From assembly GCA_963575645.1 (NCBI GenBank), contig OY754471.1, positions 36,774,401 to 36,838,400 on the forward strand: a stretch of DNA of 64,000 nucleotides. Reading direction: 5' to 3'. The DNA is from Xanthostigma xanthostigma. Its lineage: Eukaryota; Arthropoda; Insecta; Raphidioptera; Raphidiidae. This document shows, piece after piece, positions 2,379 to 53,875 of this stretch (its first letter is position 1; every line of letters begins with the position of its first letter). Below the pieces are notes generated by a model. The model searched no databases and was not told the origin of the DNA. It saw nothing but the letters and a program-made list of their open reading frames with translations. A program made the position numbers and the translations under genes.

Positions 2379-2729
2379 GACGTTAAATGGAGTTTTCACT
2401 GTAAGTTCATGATCAAACGCAGTAGACCTAAACTCAGGAAAGTGGTTGGGCTTTTAGCCGGTCATGCACCCCTGAGAAAGCATCTACACAAAGTGGGGAT
2501 ACGTCACGAATCGACAAAGTGTAGATTTTGCAAAATGGAAGACGAAACAGCCAACCATTCACTGTGTGAATGCGAGGCCCTAGCCTACAAGAGAGCAACG
2601 ATCATTGGATACATTGATGAGAGCGGAGTAATCCCTCAAGACAATCTAGTCACCAATCTTCCTTCTGGAGTTCATGAGGAGATTCAAACTATTGGAGGAC
2701 TAGATCCAGGACAAGGGGGGCAAAGATGA
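2379..2729 (+). CDS. LINE C-terminal fragment (R1/Jockey-like, zinc-knuckle tail)
   Basis: The frame is open from about 2373; the first ATG is at 2409. The readable part ends with the C-terminal region of a non-LTR retrotransposon polyprotein: 'GLLAGHAPLRKHLHKVGI' followed by a Cys/His cluster, C-R-F-C, then H-S-L-C-E-C. This arrangement (a T/AGH-x2-L..HL..G motif, then CxxC...HxxCxC) is common behind the RNase H or reverse transcriptase part of arthropod LINEs. The reverse transcriptase, endonuclease and ORF1 are absent, so the copy is strongly 5'-truncated, as is usual for target-primed insertion. It is followed by a short 3' UTR and a TTCA-type tail. It cannot make an active enzyme. The clade assignment is by motif only. 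Confidence 0.7.
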   Translation, partial: DVKWSFHCKFMIKRSRPKLRKVVGLLAGHAPLRKHLHKVGIRHESTKCRFCKMEDETANHSLCECEALAYKRATIIGYIDESGVIPQDNLVTNLPSGVHEEIQTIGGLDPGQGGQR

Positions 2730-2786
2730 CGTGCATAACGGGCTATTAAGCCATAGCCCCTAATTTATTCGTTCATTCATTCATGC
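2730..2786 (+). repeat. LINE 3' UTR and TTCA-repeat tail
   Basis: After the stop codon comes 'GGGCTATTAAGCCATAGCCC', a small self-complementary stretch that may be the hairpin used by the reverse transcriptase. A short TTCATTCATTCAT tail ends the LINE. Confidence 0.55.
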
Positions 2787-3715
2787 AAGTTCATTTGTAC
2801 GATGTAATATGAAGATTTATCACGAAAACTGAAAAGCGAATCCGACTCGAACATGGCCATTTTTTTATAATATGACTAGACAACGATTTGTAAGTGTTCA
2901 GGTGGTCTTTCCTACAGCATCCTTTTTATAGGTGTCATTTTTCTATTACAATAGCGAGGAAAATAACTACGGTTATCAGTTTAAAAACATGCTGTCCGAT
3001 GTCACTAGTGTACATGTCAATATTTATTAGGGTTAAGTGGTTTATGAAAGGTCCTAAACGATGCATTTCTAGGTTAGGGTGATATCTAACTCTACAAGTG
3101 GGGAATGGTACTAATTTAAGACAAAATTCACTTTTACAATTATACCAGTTTTACTTCTGCAATTTGTAGTGTAAAATACAGTCTCTTTTTTTAACTGAAG
3201 TTTTTTGTTAATAAATCACTATTTGTCTGCTCATAACGCAATTAGCAAAGAAGTAAATTAAAACGGAGTGTTCAGAATTGTTTCTTATATTTTAATACTA
3301 TAAACAATCACTAACAAAATATATATCTTTTAATCTAAGATACTTTTTCAGATAACCTTACTCCATTGAATTTCGACGAGGTTAATCTATAATATAGGCT
3401 TATAGCAGAGGTTTCTATCGGAAGTTCACTCAAACTAATTTTCTAAGACATCAGCTAATTGGATGTGTAACACAAATACATTTTTTATCGTTTAACGATC
3501 TTTCCATTTCAAATGAATTGCCGTTTCTGAGTTTCCGGTAGTGTTAAATGAACCATCTATTGTCAGGCTAAATATCAGCCTAGGGTATAGGTTTTCTCTC
3601 TACACGCTAAGCTGCATTGTAATGTTTGCATGGCTGTTTGACTGCAGCATAGAATATTACACACTTCTGTTTGTCCCCCAGAATATTTACTATGGAATGT
3701 GACATGGCCTGCTAC
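2787..3715. other. Unassigned AT-rich DNA
   Basis: I see no gene, tandem array or paired terminus. Short open frames here have no recognisable features. Confidence 0.4.
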
Positions 3716-4165
3716 AATAACAATAGGGATGATGACAGATTTTGAAATCCAGTTCTATAGTGTAAGTACAATATTATGTCTACTATTTCCGAAAAAAATT
3801 ATTTCAGCAATATATTTTAACGCAAATTATTGCATTTTTATCTTTCTATTTTGAAGTAATTGCGAAAACGCTTGTGACGTGACGCTTTAGTGACAGCTGA
3901 CACTAGATGGTGCATTTGTGGGTGTGGAGTTGTCGTGCAGAGGTATTTCGTAGAAAGACATGTAAATTTACTTAATTATATGATTTATATTAAGTATTTT
4001 CTTAAATGTAAGTACTTAGTAGTAATAAAAATAGTATGGCTTTCTTTAGTTGCAAGTTAACTAACCTCAATAATAATAGACGTAAGTGTTATAAAATATC
4101 ACAAAAAAACGAATAAACAACAAATAAACTAATTAAATGATCGCAACACAAATTTAAGCGACACT
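3716..4165 (+). repeat. Dispersed repeat, copy 1 of a direct pair
   Basis: Shared with 4995-5310 in the same orientation. Matching blocks include 'GATGACAGATTTTGAAATC', 'TTGCAAGTTAACTAACCTCA' and 'AACTAATTAAATGAT'. Copy 1 contains extra sequence around 3760-3880. No ORF. Probably a non-autonomous element; its ends were not resolved. Confidence 0.5.
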
Positions 4166-18244: not shown

Positions 18245-19106
18245 TAAAAGTTTTTTGGCACTCCTGTAAAATTTAAAAAAAAGTCGCTTATTCTTTTTTT
18301 TTATTTTGAATAATTTTGCTTCGGCAGAAGCCATTAGCATAACAAAAAAAAATTGAAAAGAAGTTTGACCCTGCAGGCCATCCCTGTAACTTACCGCTAT
18401 TTTCGAGTTCAAAACGCTCTAAAATATATAAAATATAGCAAAAAGTTTATTTTTTAGCTCTTCGAGCACAAAAAAAAAAACACTTTGTTACGAAATTTTC
18501 GTTCACGGTATCTCATGAACAAATGAACCGATTTTGATGCGATTTGCGGCAGTCGGCGCAATTTTTTAACCTAAAAAAGTAATTTATTACAGAAAAATCA
18601 ATCTCATAAGAATTTTACGAGTAATTTAAAAAAAAAAGTTTTTTACAAATTTTTCGTTCACGATATCTCATGAACAAATGAACCAATTTTGATTTTGTTT
18701 GCGGCGATCGACGCAGTTTTCTTAGCCTAAGAAAGTAATTTATTACAAAAAAATCGATCTGATAACAATTTTAAGAGTCATTTTAAAAAAACACTTTTTT
18801 ACGATTTTTTCGTTCACGGTATCTCGTGAACAAACGAACCGATTTTGATGCGGTTTGCGGAAATCGACGCAGTTTGTTAAGAAGAAGAGCTGATTAGATT
18901 TTGGAATTAATCGGATGAGTAGTTTAGAAAATATTTTACAAAAACAAATTTTTAAAAATTTTTGAAACTTGTTTTTTTAAGTTTTCTCAAATTTTTTTGG
19001 GCCGAATCATTTCAAAATTTCAGGAAGTCTAAGTTCACCAAGATCACGTCAGATGCCGCAAACCGCGTTTCAGTCGGACACTCCGTTCAAAAGATATAAA
19101 AGGTTT

Positions 19107-19380
19107 AATAAATAAAATTATCGACCAATTTTTCAGACAATATATTAACAAAAATGATTAATAATACATTAACGTTTCGATCCGGATTTGGATCTTCTTC
19201 AGAACGGATCTAAAAATATAAAAAAATAATTAATAATTTTTAAATCCGTTCTGAAGAAGTTCCAAATCCGGATCGAAACGTTAATGTATTATTAATAATT
19301 TTTGTTAATATATTGTCTGAAAAATTGGTCGATAATTTTATTTATTGAAGAGTTCTAATCAGACGTTAATCAAAGATTTG
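19107..19380. mobile_element. Fold-back insertion with 12-bp target duplication
   Basis: The insert is bracketed by TATAAAAGGTTT on both sides (19095-19106 and 19381-19392). The uninterrupted site exists in family K copy 2 near 53107-53125. Inverted arms run from 'ATAAAATTATCGACCAATTT' to 'GATCCGGATTTGGA' and meet at the centre near 19225. The right side has about 33 extra bases ending 'CAGACGTTAATCAAAGATTT', which also occur at 44557. The duplication is longer than typical for most cut-and-paste elements. Confidence 0.75.
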
Positions 19381-33273: not shown

Positions 33274-33864
33274 TTTTATGTGCATTTCCGGCGAGTATCT
33301 CATTTATCATCGTGTTAAAAATCACATTTTTAATAATTGGTTGGAAACTAAAGGTGCAATATTTAAAAAAAATTAGTTGTCTGTCTGAATAATCCATAAA
33401 TACAAAATTAACATTTCAGAACTTGCTCTATTCATCGAATAACCCTAAACGAGACTATTCTCATCTTGACTGAAAAAGTTCCATTTAAAAATGGGGAATT
33501 ATAAAACGGTCGAATAAAAAAAAACTTGGTGACTGATGATGAGATACTGTTTTAATAACTTGAGCGGTATGAAATAGAGTAAGCGAAAAAATAACAAAAC
33601 TAGCGACAAATATTCGTTAATAATAAAATCCAGAACGGGCTTACAAACATTGGGTTGTAAATAATCCATTTGAGATATTAAAATAATAGTTGGGTGACTA
33701 AATTACTAAGTGAGCGACTAGAATGCCTTCGGTAATTTTGAAGCAGATATCAATTCTTTTGTTTTTACTTTTTATTTTTTTTTCACTTTGAGACTACAAC
33801 TTAAAACTCACATTTTCATGAAGATTGAAAACCACCGCTTTTTTTGATAAAGGCCGGGTACGCG
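33274..33864. other. Unassigned AT-rich DNA
   Basis: Nothing recognised. Confidence 0.35.
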
Positions 33865-33990
33865 AATTGTCTCGCAGTGAAACGCGATGGGGCAAAGGTG
33901 GAGTTTTTTAAAAAAATAATTCCGGGGTGAACGATAAACGGGTATGCGAATTGTAATTCCGGGGTGAACGATAACGGGGTATGCGAATTA
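33865..33990 (-). repeat. Single-copy relative of the 120-bp satellite
   Basis: The reverse complement carries the satellite words in satellite order: 'ATTCGCATACCC', 'TTATCGTTCACCCCGGAATT', 'TTTTTTAAAAAACTCCAC' and 'CACTGCGAGACAATTCGC'. About one 120-bp unit is present, diverged from the 49.1-49.9 kb array. It is followed directly by a hairpin. Confidence 0.75.
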
Positions 33991-33991
33991 A

Positions 33992-34106
33992 ATAGTTAAT
34001 TGTTTGAATAGAACTGCGTTTTCTAAAAAATGTATATTATTTAATTGACAGTCAATTAAATATATATTTTTTAGAAAACGCAGTTCTATTCAGACAATTA
34101 ACTATT
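33992..34106. repeat. Near-perfect snap-back palindrome, 57-bp arms
   Basis: The arms contain 'GAATAGAACTGCGTTTTCTA' and 'TAGAAAACGCAGTTCTATTC' and meet at the centre 'TTAATTGACAGTCAATTAA' with practically no loop. It joins the satellite relative directly on the left. Confidence 0.8.
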
Positions 34107-34867
34107 AAAAAAATGCCGCTCAGAATAAATAAATCATTTGCCAAATTGTGAAAAAATGCAGGACGTAACGTTGACACTCAAACAAAATAATATTAGGTCG
34201 CTCAAATATTATGAAGCTTCCCATTTTGTATTTTAAGTAACTCAAATGGATGTTTGTAAGTTGCTGTTCTGTTGATTTTTCGTCACGCGCAGTCAGTCGC
34301 TCACTTAGTAATACAGTAACCCAAATTGATTATTTTTGTAATTTACAGTCATTCGTTTAAATACTACCCTTTAAAAAATAATTGAATGTTCAATAGCAGT
34401 TTAAAAAAAATATTAGACAGTTGTGAAAAATAAATAGCAATGAAAGTCTGCAAATGAAATATAACAACTATTATACAGTTCGCTTGTTATTAGTAGAATG
34501 AAAAATTAATTCATTTACATTTAAATAAAATGTTAAGACTGTAGTTAAGGCAGCACTTTATACTCGCTGTTCTCTCGTGAACAATGCAGAATAATGCAGG
34601 ACCAAGTTTTATTATACGAATTTCTTAAGTGTGTACTTTGCATGTAAGATTTCCCCTTTCTCGTTTTTATGTAAAACCAGAAATAATATGCACTTTTCCA
34701 TGCAAAATGAAGCTACATTCGAAAGTTCATTTGCACAAAACCTTTCGTATATACCACCACCAAACCAAAATATACATTAACGTGGACAAAAGGCCAAGCC
34801 GCCTATGTCGATTTTTTCTACCTTGAGATATTTTCGAAATTAATCTTAGACTTTAGAGTAATGTGAG
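34107..34867. other. Unassigned AT-rich DNA
   Basis: No gene, repeat pair or terminus was recognised. Confidence 0.35.
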
Positions 34868-48705: not shown

Positions 48706-48892
48706 GGCCCCACTGGTTCTATGACTCTATATCCTCGGACAAAATATCCTGGACAAAATATCCCGGACAAAATATCCTCAGACAAAATATCCTCAAGACA
48801 AAAAATCCTTCGGACATAATATCCACGGTATGATAAAATTATACGGGATACAAGGCTAAAATAAAAAAACAATTTTTATTCACTAGAACATT

Positions 48893-49012
48893 ATTTATTG
48901 ATCAACGTTTCGGCAATTTTCTTGACTTCTTCAGGACCTTAAAAATCTTTAGTGAAAAGTCACAAAATTAAGAAGGCAAGAAATATTGCCGAAACGTTGA
49001 CCAATAAATAAT
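48893..49012. repeat. Small inverted repeat inside the Foldback-like element
   Basis: 'ATTATTTATTGATCAACGTT' TCGG faces CCGAAACGTTGACCAATAAA TAAT. The inner sequence 'CTTGACTTCTTCAGGACC' recalls the 'GAAGAAG...AACGTTTCG' combination of the fold-backs at 19107 and 23478. Confidence 0.65.
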
Positions 49013-49136
49013 GGGTAATTATACACTTTCACGGTCACCTGGTTTTTTGGCTCTAAAAAATCGAAAAATAGATGGATTTCAATGATCTCGGTCTCAAAAA
49101 GTTCCATTTTACGGCGGATTTATGAAAAAAATTAGT

Positions 49137-49906
49137 TCACCCCGGAATTACAATTCGCATACCCGTTTATCGTTCACCCCGGAATTGTTTTTTTAAAAAC
49201 TCCACATTTGCCCCTTCCCGTTTCACTGCGAGACAATTCGCATACCCCTTTATCGTTCACCCCGGAATTACAATTCGCATACCCGTTTATCGTTCACCCC
49301 GGAATTGTTTTTTTAAAAACTCCACATTTGCCCCTTCCCGTTTCACTGCGAGACAATTCGCATACCCCTTTATCGTTCACCCCGGAATTACAATTCGCAT
49401 ACCCGTTTATCGTTCACCCCGGAATTGTTTTTTTAAAAACTCCACATTTGCCCCTTCCCGTTTCACTGCGAGACAATTCGCATACCCCTTTATCGTTCAC
49501 CCCGGAATTACAATTCGCATACCCGTTTATCGTTCACCCCGGAATTGTTTTTTTAAAAACTCCACATTTGCCCCTTCCCGTTTCACTGCGAGACAATTCG
49601 CATACCCCTTTATCGTTCACCCCGGAATTACAATTCGCATACCCGTTTATCGTTCACCCCGGAATTGTTTTTTTAAAAACTCCACATTTGCCCCTTCCCG
49701 TTTCACTGCGAGACAATTCGCATACCCCTTTATCGTTCACCCCGGAATTACAATTCGCATACCCGTTTATCGTTCACCCCGGAATTGTTTTTTTAAAAAC
49801 TCCACATTTGCCCCTTCCCGTTTCACTGCGAGACAATTCGCATACCTCTTTATCGTTCACTCCGGAATTACAATTCGCATACCCGTTTATCGTTCACCCC
49901 GGAATT
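49137..49906 (+). repeat. 120-bp satellite array, about 6.4 near-identical copies
   Basis: The period is exactly 120 bases. Units are identical or nearly so until the last one, which has CTCTTT for CCCTTT and TCCGG for CCCGG. Each unit contains two diverged half-copies of 'AATTCGCATACCC...TTTATCGTTCACCCCGG'. Since 120 is divisible by three, a 313-codon frame (49208-50149) stays open as a repeated 40-residue block; it is not regarded as a gene. A single diverged relative is at 33865. Confidence 0.95.
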
Positions 49907-50883
49907 GACGTCAGAAACAGTTATAAAGAATTATATGTAGAAAGTCAATTTTTTTTTGCATTTTTTGTCCACGGATATTCTGACAAAGGACATTTTGTCT
50001 CATGGATATTTTGTCTCAAGGATATTTTGTCCAAGGATATTTTAACAAGGATATTTTGTCGGGGATATTTTGTCCGCGGATATGGAGTCCGGTTACCGGC
50101 CCCACTCACGATCACACTTCATGCAACAGTTCAGTGTTCAAACTTATAGTTCAGTGAAGCATGATAGTGTGTGGGACAAATAAACACTGAAACCAACACT
50201 GAAGTCAAGCATGAACTCATCAAATGCATCTTGATTTTTGAACGACTTCAGTGTTCAGTGTTCAAGTAAACTGTTGTGTGTGTGGGTGTTTTTCAGTTCA
50301 GTTTTTGGAGTTCTGTGTTTTGTACAACCAGAAGCCAAAAATCTCAATGTTGCTGCCTTTCTTGTGCAGAAATAGATTTTCACATATTTGTGTCCTGGTT
50401 CTTAATAAATAGGGTAACTAATTCCAGTAAATAATTGTAAGTTAATTCATTCATTCGTAAATAATTATTGCAATCAAGCGGCTCAAGATGTAATTCATTA
50501 ATCAAATAAACATGACTTCTTGAATCACGCATTTCTAACCAATTTTTCACCCATATATTCTTCTTTTTTTTTCTTATTTCTCTGTTTTAAATACAATCCC
50601 ATAGCTCTGAACAGCCAATCCTCACCATTTAAATTACTCATTTAATTCTTATTAATGAACTATACTCTATAGTATAATATTATAGTGTGTATATAATATA
50701 ATATATCTTATGTATCTATACTCGACGAGTGTATGCCAACAACTGAACCAAACTGAACACAAAAAATTTAAAAAACTGAGCAGTTTGCATGAACTGTGTG
50801 TGGTGCCAGTCAGTCTTTCGATTAATCTGTCCAACTTCACTGAACACTGAACTGTGGCATGAAGTTTGATCGTGAGTGGGGCC

Positions 50884-51612
50884 TATAACACTAGCTGACT
50901 GACAGATAACGCACAGCCTAAACAGGTGGGTCTAGAAGCATGAAATTTTGCACAGGAGTTCCTCATGTACCATAGGTGAGCAGTAAGACAGGATTTTTCA
51001 AAATTCATCCCCTAAGGTCGTTAAGGGGTTACGCCACCTTGAGATTTTCCCAAAATGCGATTTTGTTGGGAGTTTAGATGAATATTTTGAGCGTTTAACT
51101 TTTCCAAAATTCAAACTATTATCGAAGTTATAGCAATAACTAGTTCCTATTAGTCACAGAGCAATCAATCAGTTATTTTTTTCTTTTACGTTTTTCTCGA
51201 AACTACATTTTTCAAAACGGTGTACACGATATTTCAAAATATACTCAACCGGTTTGGTTAAAATTTACAACACTTATTTTTTTTATTCTAAACTACAATG
51301 TGACTTAGGATTTTTTTGATTGGGTAGCATGTTATAAATGTTATAAATTTTTCAATTTCGATGCAAATTCCAGTTTTTTTTTTCAAACAGTTGTCTTTTC
51401 TACAAAAAAAAACTGAAAAATGTTAGTCTACGTCATATTGTAGCTATTTTCCTTTTAAATTTGGAAAAAAATTGTTTATGTTTCTGACAATGTATAAGAG
51501 AGAAATCATGTACACTATCAGCAGGGATTTTCAAAAGAGGGTCCTACTTATCGGCTCATATCTCCAACATTTTTTATTTTTTTTAATCGTCAATATTGCA
51601 AACTGTTAATAA
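50884..51612. other. Unassigned DNA, possibly an old repeat
   Basis: 50930-51100 ('GAAATTTTGCACAGGAG', 'GGGGTTACGCCACC') has the look of a dispersed repeat body, but no second copy lies in this window. No gene. Confidence 0.35.
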
Positions 51613-52916: not shown

Positions 52917-53875
52917 AACTTCCCGCTTAAAAAAAAAAAATTTTTTTTCAAAAATCGGGAAGTTATTGGTTTCACCAGCGATTTTCGAAAATCGAGTTTT
53001 CGCCAGATCTCGACGTTTTGAGGTCCTAGGAAGCTATTGAAACTATTTTGGCGATGATGTCCGTAGGGCTGTATGTATGTGTGTGTGTGTGTGTGTATGC
53101 ATGTATGTAAACCTTTTATATCTTTTGAACGGAGTGTCTGACTGAAACGCGGTTTGCGACATCTGACGTGATCTTGGTGAACTTAGACTTCCTGAAAATT
53201 TGAAACGATTCGGCCCAAAAAATTTTGTGAACTCTTAAAAAACAAGTTTCAAAAATTTTTAAAAATTTGTTTTTGTAAAAAATTTTCTAAACTACTAAAC
53301 CGATTAATTCCAAAAACTAATCAGCTCTTCTCCTTAACAAACTGCGTCGATTTCCGCAAACCGCATCAAAATCGGTTCATTTGTTCACGAGATACCGTGA
53401 ACGAAAAAATCGTAAAAAAGTGTTTTTTTTAAATTACTCTTAAAATTGTTATCAGATTGATTTTTTTGTAATAAATTACTTTTTTAGGCTAATAAAACTG
53501 CGTCGATCGCCGCAAACCATATCAAAATTGGTTCATTAATTGTTCATGAGATAACGTGAACTAAAAATTAGGAAAAAAGTAATTTTTTAAAATTACTCGT
53601 AAAATTCTTATCAAATCGATTTTTTTGTAATAATTTACTTTCTTAGGTTAAAAAAACTGCGTCGATTGCAGCAAACCGCATCAAAATCGGCTCATTTGTT
53701 CATGAGATATCGTAAACGAAAATTTCGTAACAAAGTGTTTTTTTTTGAGCTCGAAGAGCTAAAAAATAAACTTCTTGCTATATTTTATATATTTTTGAGC
53801 GTTTTGAACTCGAAAATAGCGGGAAGTTACAGGGATGGCCTGTAGGGTCAAACTTCTTTTCAATTTTTTTTTTAA
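52917..53875 (+). mobile_element. Family K dispersed repeat, copy 2 (uninterrupted)
   Basis: It begins AACTTCCCGCT, carries 'TTTCGAAAATCGAGTTTTCG', a TGTA/TG microsatellite (53070-53110), the triple 155-bp unit, and 'AGCGGGAAGTT' at 53818-53828, then 'GGATGGCCTGTAGGGTCAAA'. It is the inverted partner of 18345-19600 and preserves the empty site of the 274-bp fold-back insertion. Confidence 0.65.

Follow-up and report, generated by a model that had tools for sequence, protein, structure and literature searches.

Drosophila Foldback elements (FB/NOF) encode a NOF-type protein in their full copies, Galileo and the P superfamily produce 7-bp target duplications, and Merlin elements produce duplications of 8-9 bp. 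Rehavkus elements carry a minisatellite before their 3' TIR. The family studied here, which we met in a window of Xanthostigma xanthostigma DNA (the whole stretch of 64,000 nucleotides analysed), likewise has a satellite, and its ends are of foldback type.

Foldback-type anatomy has also been described among MULEs. Muta1, a MULE of Aedes aegypti, is called a type-2 foldback element and generates duplications of 8 or 9 bp in yeast (PMC5225508). As far as its accessible description goes, Muta1 shares with the present family duplications of 8 or 9 bp, many non-autonomous derivatives, a short terminal motif followed by 12-bp subterminal tandem repeats (spacers of 3-4 bp in Muta1) and a two-exon transposase with zinc and DDE domains (504 aa in Muta1, 475 aa here); it differs in that the same text gives one end type, mentions no satellite and has most derivatives matching their source in the ends only (PMC5225508). 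Tm1, a Mutator/Foldback family of root-knot nematodes, similarly has differing outer 7-bp motifs, inner tandem repeats of 13-15 bp, duplications of 8-10 bp, transposase-less MITE-like members and a FLYWCH plus MULE protein (496 aa). In contrast to the present family, its unit is CGATTCAGTATCCGC, it is described as senescent rather than young, and the accessible part of the report describes no doubled end (PMC3169594).

Phantom MULEs, some of which bear a FLYWCH finger, have duplications of 8-10 bp and, in aphids, a minisatellite after the transposase gene, as here; two dialects of ends are not described in the available portion of that study (PMC6446971). In plants, MULEs with tandem external and internal TIRs can bear an extra end beside one end (type 3), as found here; one of the origins discussed for it is a nested insertion followed by loss. 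According to the excerpts available, the plant elements are mostly non-autonomous, whereas here the extra end belongs to transposase-coding elements and is written in a different unit dialect (PMC3310237). Finally, Tetris of Drosophila virilis is of foldback type, with variable tandem repeats feeding satellite DNA and duplications of 8-10 bp. As far as the available text states, no transposase was found for it and its satellite repeats belong to the TIR (PMC4079207); the present satellite is internal, and the same genome contains a transposase-coding relative. In the present genome, a foldback-type element, a satellite and transposase-coding relatives are linked, a link that the Tetris authors, by the same partial account, could not make for theirs (PMC4079207).

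Compared by these partial descriptions, the anatomy of the present family is nearly that of Muta1 and Tm1. A literature search by titles and abstract openings, mostly outside subscription papers, returned no description of the family or of ends in two dialects. The family clearly belongs to a known kind of mobile element, of which it is a new case, and parts of its anatomy are unusual.

The window element and its insertion site

Direct reading confirmed the Foldback-like structure with tandem-unit inverted ends that an earlier note on this DNA had reported. Positions 48715-50097 hold an element of 1,383 bp with inverted ends built from 12-bp units (Table 1), which carries no transposase gene and has recently moved. 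Its left tip, GGTTCTATGACTCTATATCC, starts at 48715 and its right tip, GGTAACCGGACTCCATATCC on the reverse strand, ends at 50097. Units begin at positions 9, 24, 38, 52, 67, 83 and 99 of the left end; the right end has eight unit starts. The inverted arms (48723-48824 and 49988-50089; 102 nt) are 82% complementary and, in a predicted fold that serves as an illustration only (no shuffles were made at that length), the ends of the folded strand pair with each other. The element has, in structure, the inverted tandem-repeat ends able to fold back that characterize Foldback elements. The left core contains an inner hairpin (arms 48889-48920 and 48982-49013, 94% complementary) and is partly or wholly absent from several other copies. 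The centre of the element is occupied by a satellite, as the note had stated.

Table 1. Features of the window: position, strand and basis
Feature	Position	Strand	Basis or remark
Target duplication, left copy, 9 bp, GGCCCCACT	48706-48714	.	Read directly; equals the first nine bases of element A
Left end: 8-bp tip and seven 12-bp units (GACAAAATATCC type)	48715-48828	+	Read directly
Left-end unit starts	48723, 48738, 48752, 48766, 48781, 48797, 48813	+	Up to 3 substitutions allowed
Left core, about 294 bp	48841-49134	+	BLAST comparison of copies
Satellite array, 120-bp unit (83 + 37), 6.4 copies, 99% matches	49135-49907	+	Tandem-repeat analysis
Right core, 51 bp	49908-49958	+	BLAST match in 38/40 copies (not L028, L035)
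Right end: tip GGTAACCG (reverse strand) and eight 12-bp units	49959-50097	-	Up to 3 substitutions allowed
Target duplication, right copy, GGCCCCACT	50098-50106	.	Read directly; doubles as the start of resumed element A
Element A (host of the insertion), inverted ends GGCCCCACTCACGATC	50098-50883	+	40 other genome places scored
Decayed relative	33846-34369	-	Satellite (33846-33989) and left-core-like part (34202-34369), in mutually inverted order

The element is inserted 9 bp inside element A, and the 9-bp duplication match was also computed for this copy (L006 among those described below). With 50098-50889 as query, the best of 972 candidates were scored, giving 40 other places with 94-100% identity, each matching from query base 1. 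Since every match begins there, the window element inserted after element A, and the nested order proposed earlier, with the Foldback-like element as the younger of the two, is borne out by 40 places of 40. That element A is TA-flanked, as had also been proposed, is plausible; its exact boundary is uncertain because 39 of the 40 places match 2-6 bases past the supposed tip GGCC.

Elsewhere in the window, a 765-bp repeat that is unrelated to the foldback-type element occurs twice in opposite orientation, at 18344-19107 and 53108-53872 (93% identity).

Copies across the genome

The genome searched comprises 623 Mb in 28 contigs, thirteen of which (about 17-84 Mb) represent nearly all of it; this does not resemble the karyotype usual in Lepidoptera, the order to which the earlier note had assigned the element. 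The 40 best left-end matches, the window copy included, were fetched; 29 of them were identical over 126 bp in the left-end search, both ends were present in all 40, and their lengths ranged from 807 to 3,212 bp. Exact target duplications flanked all 39 testable copies, 8 bp long in 23 and 9 bp long in 16 (L002, whose flank ends after 3 bp, lies outside the count). For two copies with two right ends, L015 and L011, the outer one was taken and gave exact duplications of 9 and 8 bp, respectively. In a random control, 167 of 200,000 position pairs matched as duplications, pairs less than 300 bp apart being scored as misses and satellite DNA being included. As the 8-bp and 9-bp classes lie in different registers, they form a true mixture and not a set of 8-mers lengthened by chance. 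The check for duplications in other copies that had been suggested was therefore positive throughout; the length of 9 bp holds for the window copy and in 16 of the 39, but 23 have 8 bp.

Over the combined ends (232 bp), 31 of the 40 copies have the commonest form. The right ends are identical over 122 bp in 34 of these 40 copies, which had been selected by their left end, and this near-identity indicates that the family is young; the left-end figure (37/40 identical over 110 bp) is biased because the copies were chosen by left-end score. The family is recent, genome-wide and mobile.

Searches with the 20-bp tips (at most 2 mismatches) found 109 left and 78 right tips in the genome, 76 of the latter exact, against 0 for a control pattern. 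Among the 100 left tips listed of these 109, 72 pair with a right tip, with spans of 802-3,049 bp, and the ends do co-occur as pairs elsewhere in the genome, as the earlier note had required of a real family. The remaining 28 have another tip 113-191 bp upstream, hereafter called outer, and represent a second element type, leaving none over (the left tip at C10:15159187, which was also 'paired' with the right tip of a neighbour, is counted among the 28). Outer left tips occur 38 times in the genome at the same threshold (control 0). Six right tips received no pairing from the script: two on C12 have known left partners, two belong to L011 and L015 as their far right ends, and two, at C4:16561592 and C6:13092999, have no such explanation.

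Some copies of the window type, hereafter inner type, are clustered. At C5:14213273-14218431 (L042, L054, L055, L056), three of them lie head to tail, with spacers (ATGCG and ATGCGT) that look like a shortened outer duplication ATGCGTTAC; their lengths (1876, 1756 and 1516) are separated by steps of 120 and 240 bp, which are whole satellite units. Two pairs of equal-length copies, each about 17.7-17.8 kb apart (C2:31880960 and C2:31898629, 1673 bp; C9:27590755 and C9:27608556, 1423 bp), look like segmental duplications.

Transposase-coding relatives and the two dialects of ends

The MULE profile PF10551 has 53 matches in the genome, and six of the 38 outer tips have such a match 1.8-3.0 kb inside. 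In five of these six copies an inner left tip lies 130-161 bp inside the outer one; in the sixth, on C3, the inner end is absent and the outer end runs directly into the satellite, the two being fused at a shared CTCCCCGG. The C1 copy (L043) was read through: its outer left end, made of GACAAAATCTCC-type units, is followed directly by a window-type left end, 98.2% identical to that of the window over 114 bp, and farther in by an 83-bp satellite array, a 422-aa MULE frame with a FLYWCH exon (minus strand) and an outer right end. The first 100 bp of the inner left end are the same in both transposase-coding copies on C4. Spliced across a 149-bp GT..AG intron with an in-frame join, the two exons of L043 give a frame of 475 aa, with FLYWCH (PF04500, E 3.6e-14) in the first exon at the N terminus and MULE (PF10551, E 1.6e-12). 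DGTF, VDFE and CEGWH stand at 193, 254 and 389 of this frame and presumably represent the usual DDE neighbourhood. Five full 421-aa frames are without stops and about 100% identical, and one more copy is matched as two separate pieces. In the four transposase-coding copies checked, target duplications were recognized by eye, three exact and of 8 bp (GAAAAATT, AAAATAAC, CTCGATAT) and one of 9 bp with one mismatch (CTTTCATAC/CTTCCATAC).

MULE-domain matches are concentrated on C10, with 34 of the 53 on that contig and 31 in a block at 8.8-16.3 Mb, perhaps a heterochromatic or sex-linked region.

The linked FLYWCH/MULE transposase places the family among FLYWCH-bearing Phantom/Muta MULEs. The MULE domain occurs in transposase-coding copies with the same left end, the window element itself being without a transposase; the N-terminal FLYWCH, duplications within 8-10 bp and extended ends that carry short tandem repeats subterminally (seven or eight units of 12 bp in each end examined) are likewise those of Phantom/Muta MULEs. 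On the linked transposase and this anatomy, we are confident that 48715-50097 is a non-autonomous cut-and-paste MULE of the Phantom/Muta kind, presumably served in trans by a FLYWCH plus MULE transposase. The earlier assignment to a Foldback-type group thus stands for the foldback-type ends and for the mobile family, and gives way on affiliation. Descent from a relative of Drosophila-type Foldback or of Galileo, to which the inverted ends of tandem units, their predicted pairing in the folded strand and the 9-bp duplications in 16 of 39 copies would also be suited, is very improbable given the FLYWCH/MULE transposase and the 8-bp duplications in 23 of 39; nor do duplications of 8 or 9 bp agree with Galileo or the P superfamily, for which 7 bp and a THAP-type transposase are expected. 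The PHD finger of Rehavkus was not found in a Pfam scan of two L043 frames (E up to 0.1). We also considered a Merlin-type element with an IS1595-type transposase (PF12762) between the ends, and rejected it: the duplication length fits and the genome has six PF12762 matches, but none of the six lies within 6 kb of any listed inner or outer tip, whereas MULE genes do adjoin the tips, so that this origin is hardly credible.

The inner and outer ends share a register. In all four (inner left and right, outer left and right) units begin at 9, 24, 38 and 52, and later units (about 67, 83, 99 and 115, the inner left end having the first seven) agree between ends within 2 bp. Local alignments between the ends scored 42-92; the highest scores in sets of 300 shuffles were 16-30. 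Judged from the letters and their spacing, the inner and outer ends are homologous. They differ in wording (GACAAAATCTCC in outer against GACAAAATATCC in inner units): ATATCC ends 13 of 15 inner units and ATCTCC 14 of 16 outer units. This consistent difference could mean a different transposase specificity. Two end dialects within one element are unusual, and the register that they conserve provides a natural means of testing what in a MULE end is recognized by the enzyme.

No MULE domain lies between paired inner ends (GGTTCTATGACTC / GGTAACCGGACTCC) in any of the 72 pairs from the 100 listed left tips, and we therefore infer the mover of the family from its relatives; the full copy with a transposase between the same ends that had been anticipated was absent from the pairs examined. 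One apparent exception, a MULE gene at C10:15155098, proved by its coordinates to be a neighbour outside the pair. A MULE relic at C10:9531979 (48% identical) was also discarded as an inner-type source: the flanks covered (1.9 kb to one side, and 1.4 kb lying farther out to the other, about 0.95 kb beside the gene being left out) contain no GACAAAATxTCC array and one lone weak site.

In the mechanism that we favour, a transposase of the FLYWCH plus MULE type, provided in trans, would bind the arrays of 12-bp units at both ends, excise the element and reinsert it with an 8- or 9-bp stagger, the insertion at the window being later than element A. The satellite would be passenger DNA, lengthened or shortened from copy to copy in steps of whole 37- and 83-bp units. 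The likeliest present source would be the intact outer-type transposase, acting in trans, ahead of a separate enzyme that is lost or unsampled.

Several copies bear on that second source. On C10, an inner-type copy lies inside a transposase-coding copy with an exact 9-bp duplication, CATGTAAAC; the same site is uninterrupted in three other copies (one on C1 and two on C4) and therefore represents an empty site, so that inner-type copies do land in outer-type elements. Such an insertion is a plausible origin of the double left end. L011, a composite of 3,212 bp flanked by its exact 8-bp duplication, is apparently two copies fused and moved as one; it contains a 35-aa transposase remnant that is 54-56% identical to the intact protein and that matches itself at 100% and 11 other places at 56% in the genome. 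From the divergence of this remnant, a separate inner-type transposase probably once existed. In L015, at about 2430-4150, an older inner-dialect element adjoins the young copy, and one of its sides matches the stretch directly inward of the inner left end in the transposase-coding copy.

The inner family might thus be moved by a FLYWCH/MULE transposase of its own, the gene being lost or missing from the assembly, and the outer element would have swallowed an inner copy by nested insertion and deletion. The divergent remnant within the duplicated composite, the consistent difference between end units, the copy caught inserted on C10 and the presence of both the satellite and the sequence just inside the inner left end in the older element of L015 argue for this history, which we regard as a real possibility, if the less probable one: no such gene occurs in the 72 inner pairs (53 MULE matches), yet the family is very young, and L043 has no second copy of the expected flank TCTGTGAC. 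Neither a second exact TCTGTGAC nor CTGTGAC, the mark of a complete nested insertion, was found within L043, and we accordingly keep nested capture among the things we infer.

More tentatively still, and rather unlikely as a whole, the binding ends of a single lineage may have split into the ATATCC and ATCTCC dialects, with nearly the same irregular spacing and a single-letter change in almost every unit of both ends. Coding elements would bear both in tandem at their left end, and the gene-less inner family would have outlived its own transposase, of which the 35-aa remnant is left, and spread by the sister enzyme.

The satellite

All 40 copies contain the satellite. Spacings between occurrences of the word CCGGAATT are 37 or 83 bp in 694 of 699 cases (82 bp in two more), and the 37-bp unit is the 83-bp unit minus 46 internal bp. 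All spacings are of 83 bp (20/20) in the outer-type copies L041, L043 and L051, as are 12 of 14 in the older inner-dialect element of L015 (the others being 82 and 77); the 120-bp unit of the window is, on these spacings, probably derived.

A 23-bp satellite word occurs exactly 9,874 times in the genome (control 0). The 100 matches listed fall into 28 places, all within the first 5.6 Mb of C1, and 27 of these are at no listed tip. In the 40 loci, the elements contain 688 of the 701 occurrences. From the total and from the mostly tipless places among those listed, the satellite is much more widespread than the young family and probably older; such a spread is unusual. It could be an independent dispersed repeat picked up by several elements rather than a part of the transposon, a reading that we find possible without preferring it. 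The 9,874 occurrences and the single listed place of 28 at a listed tip are consistent with it, and so are two satellites (window 33846-33989 and L017 6226-6448) that stand beside another common flank, CACCGCTTTTTTTGATAAAGG, which suggests a third kind of carrier. On the other hand, the satellite is present in all 40 copies and in the three outer-type copies read, and the older inner-dialect copy of L015 holds an array of mostly 83-bp spacing. The left-core-like part of the decayed relative in the window is 87.5% and 97% identical to parts of L043 209-310. The abundance of the 37/83-bp satellite suggests that a mobile family may seed short satellite arrays across chromosomes.

Pure runs of the 37-bp unit were also observed, in L019 (14 spacings) and, longer, at C1:5025902-5026960; they are perhaps the early stage of a new satellite.
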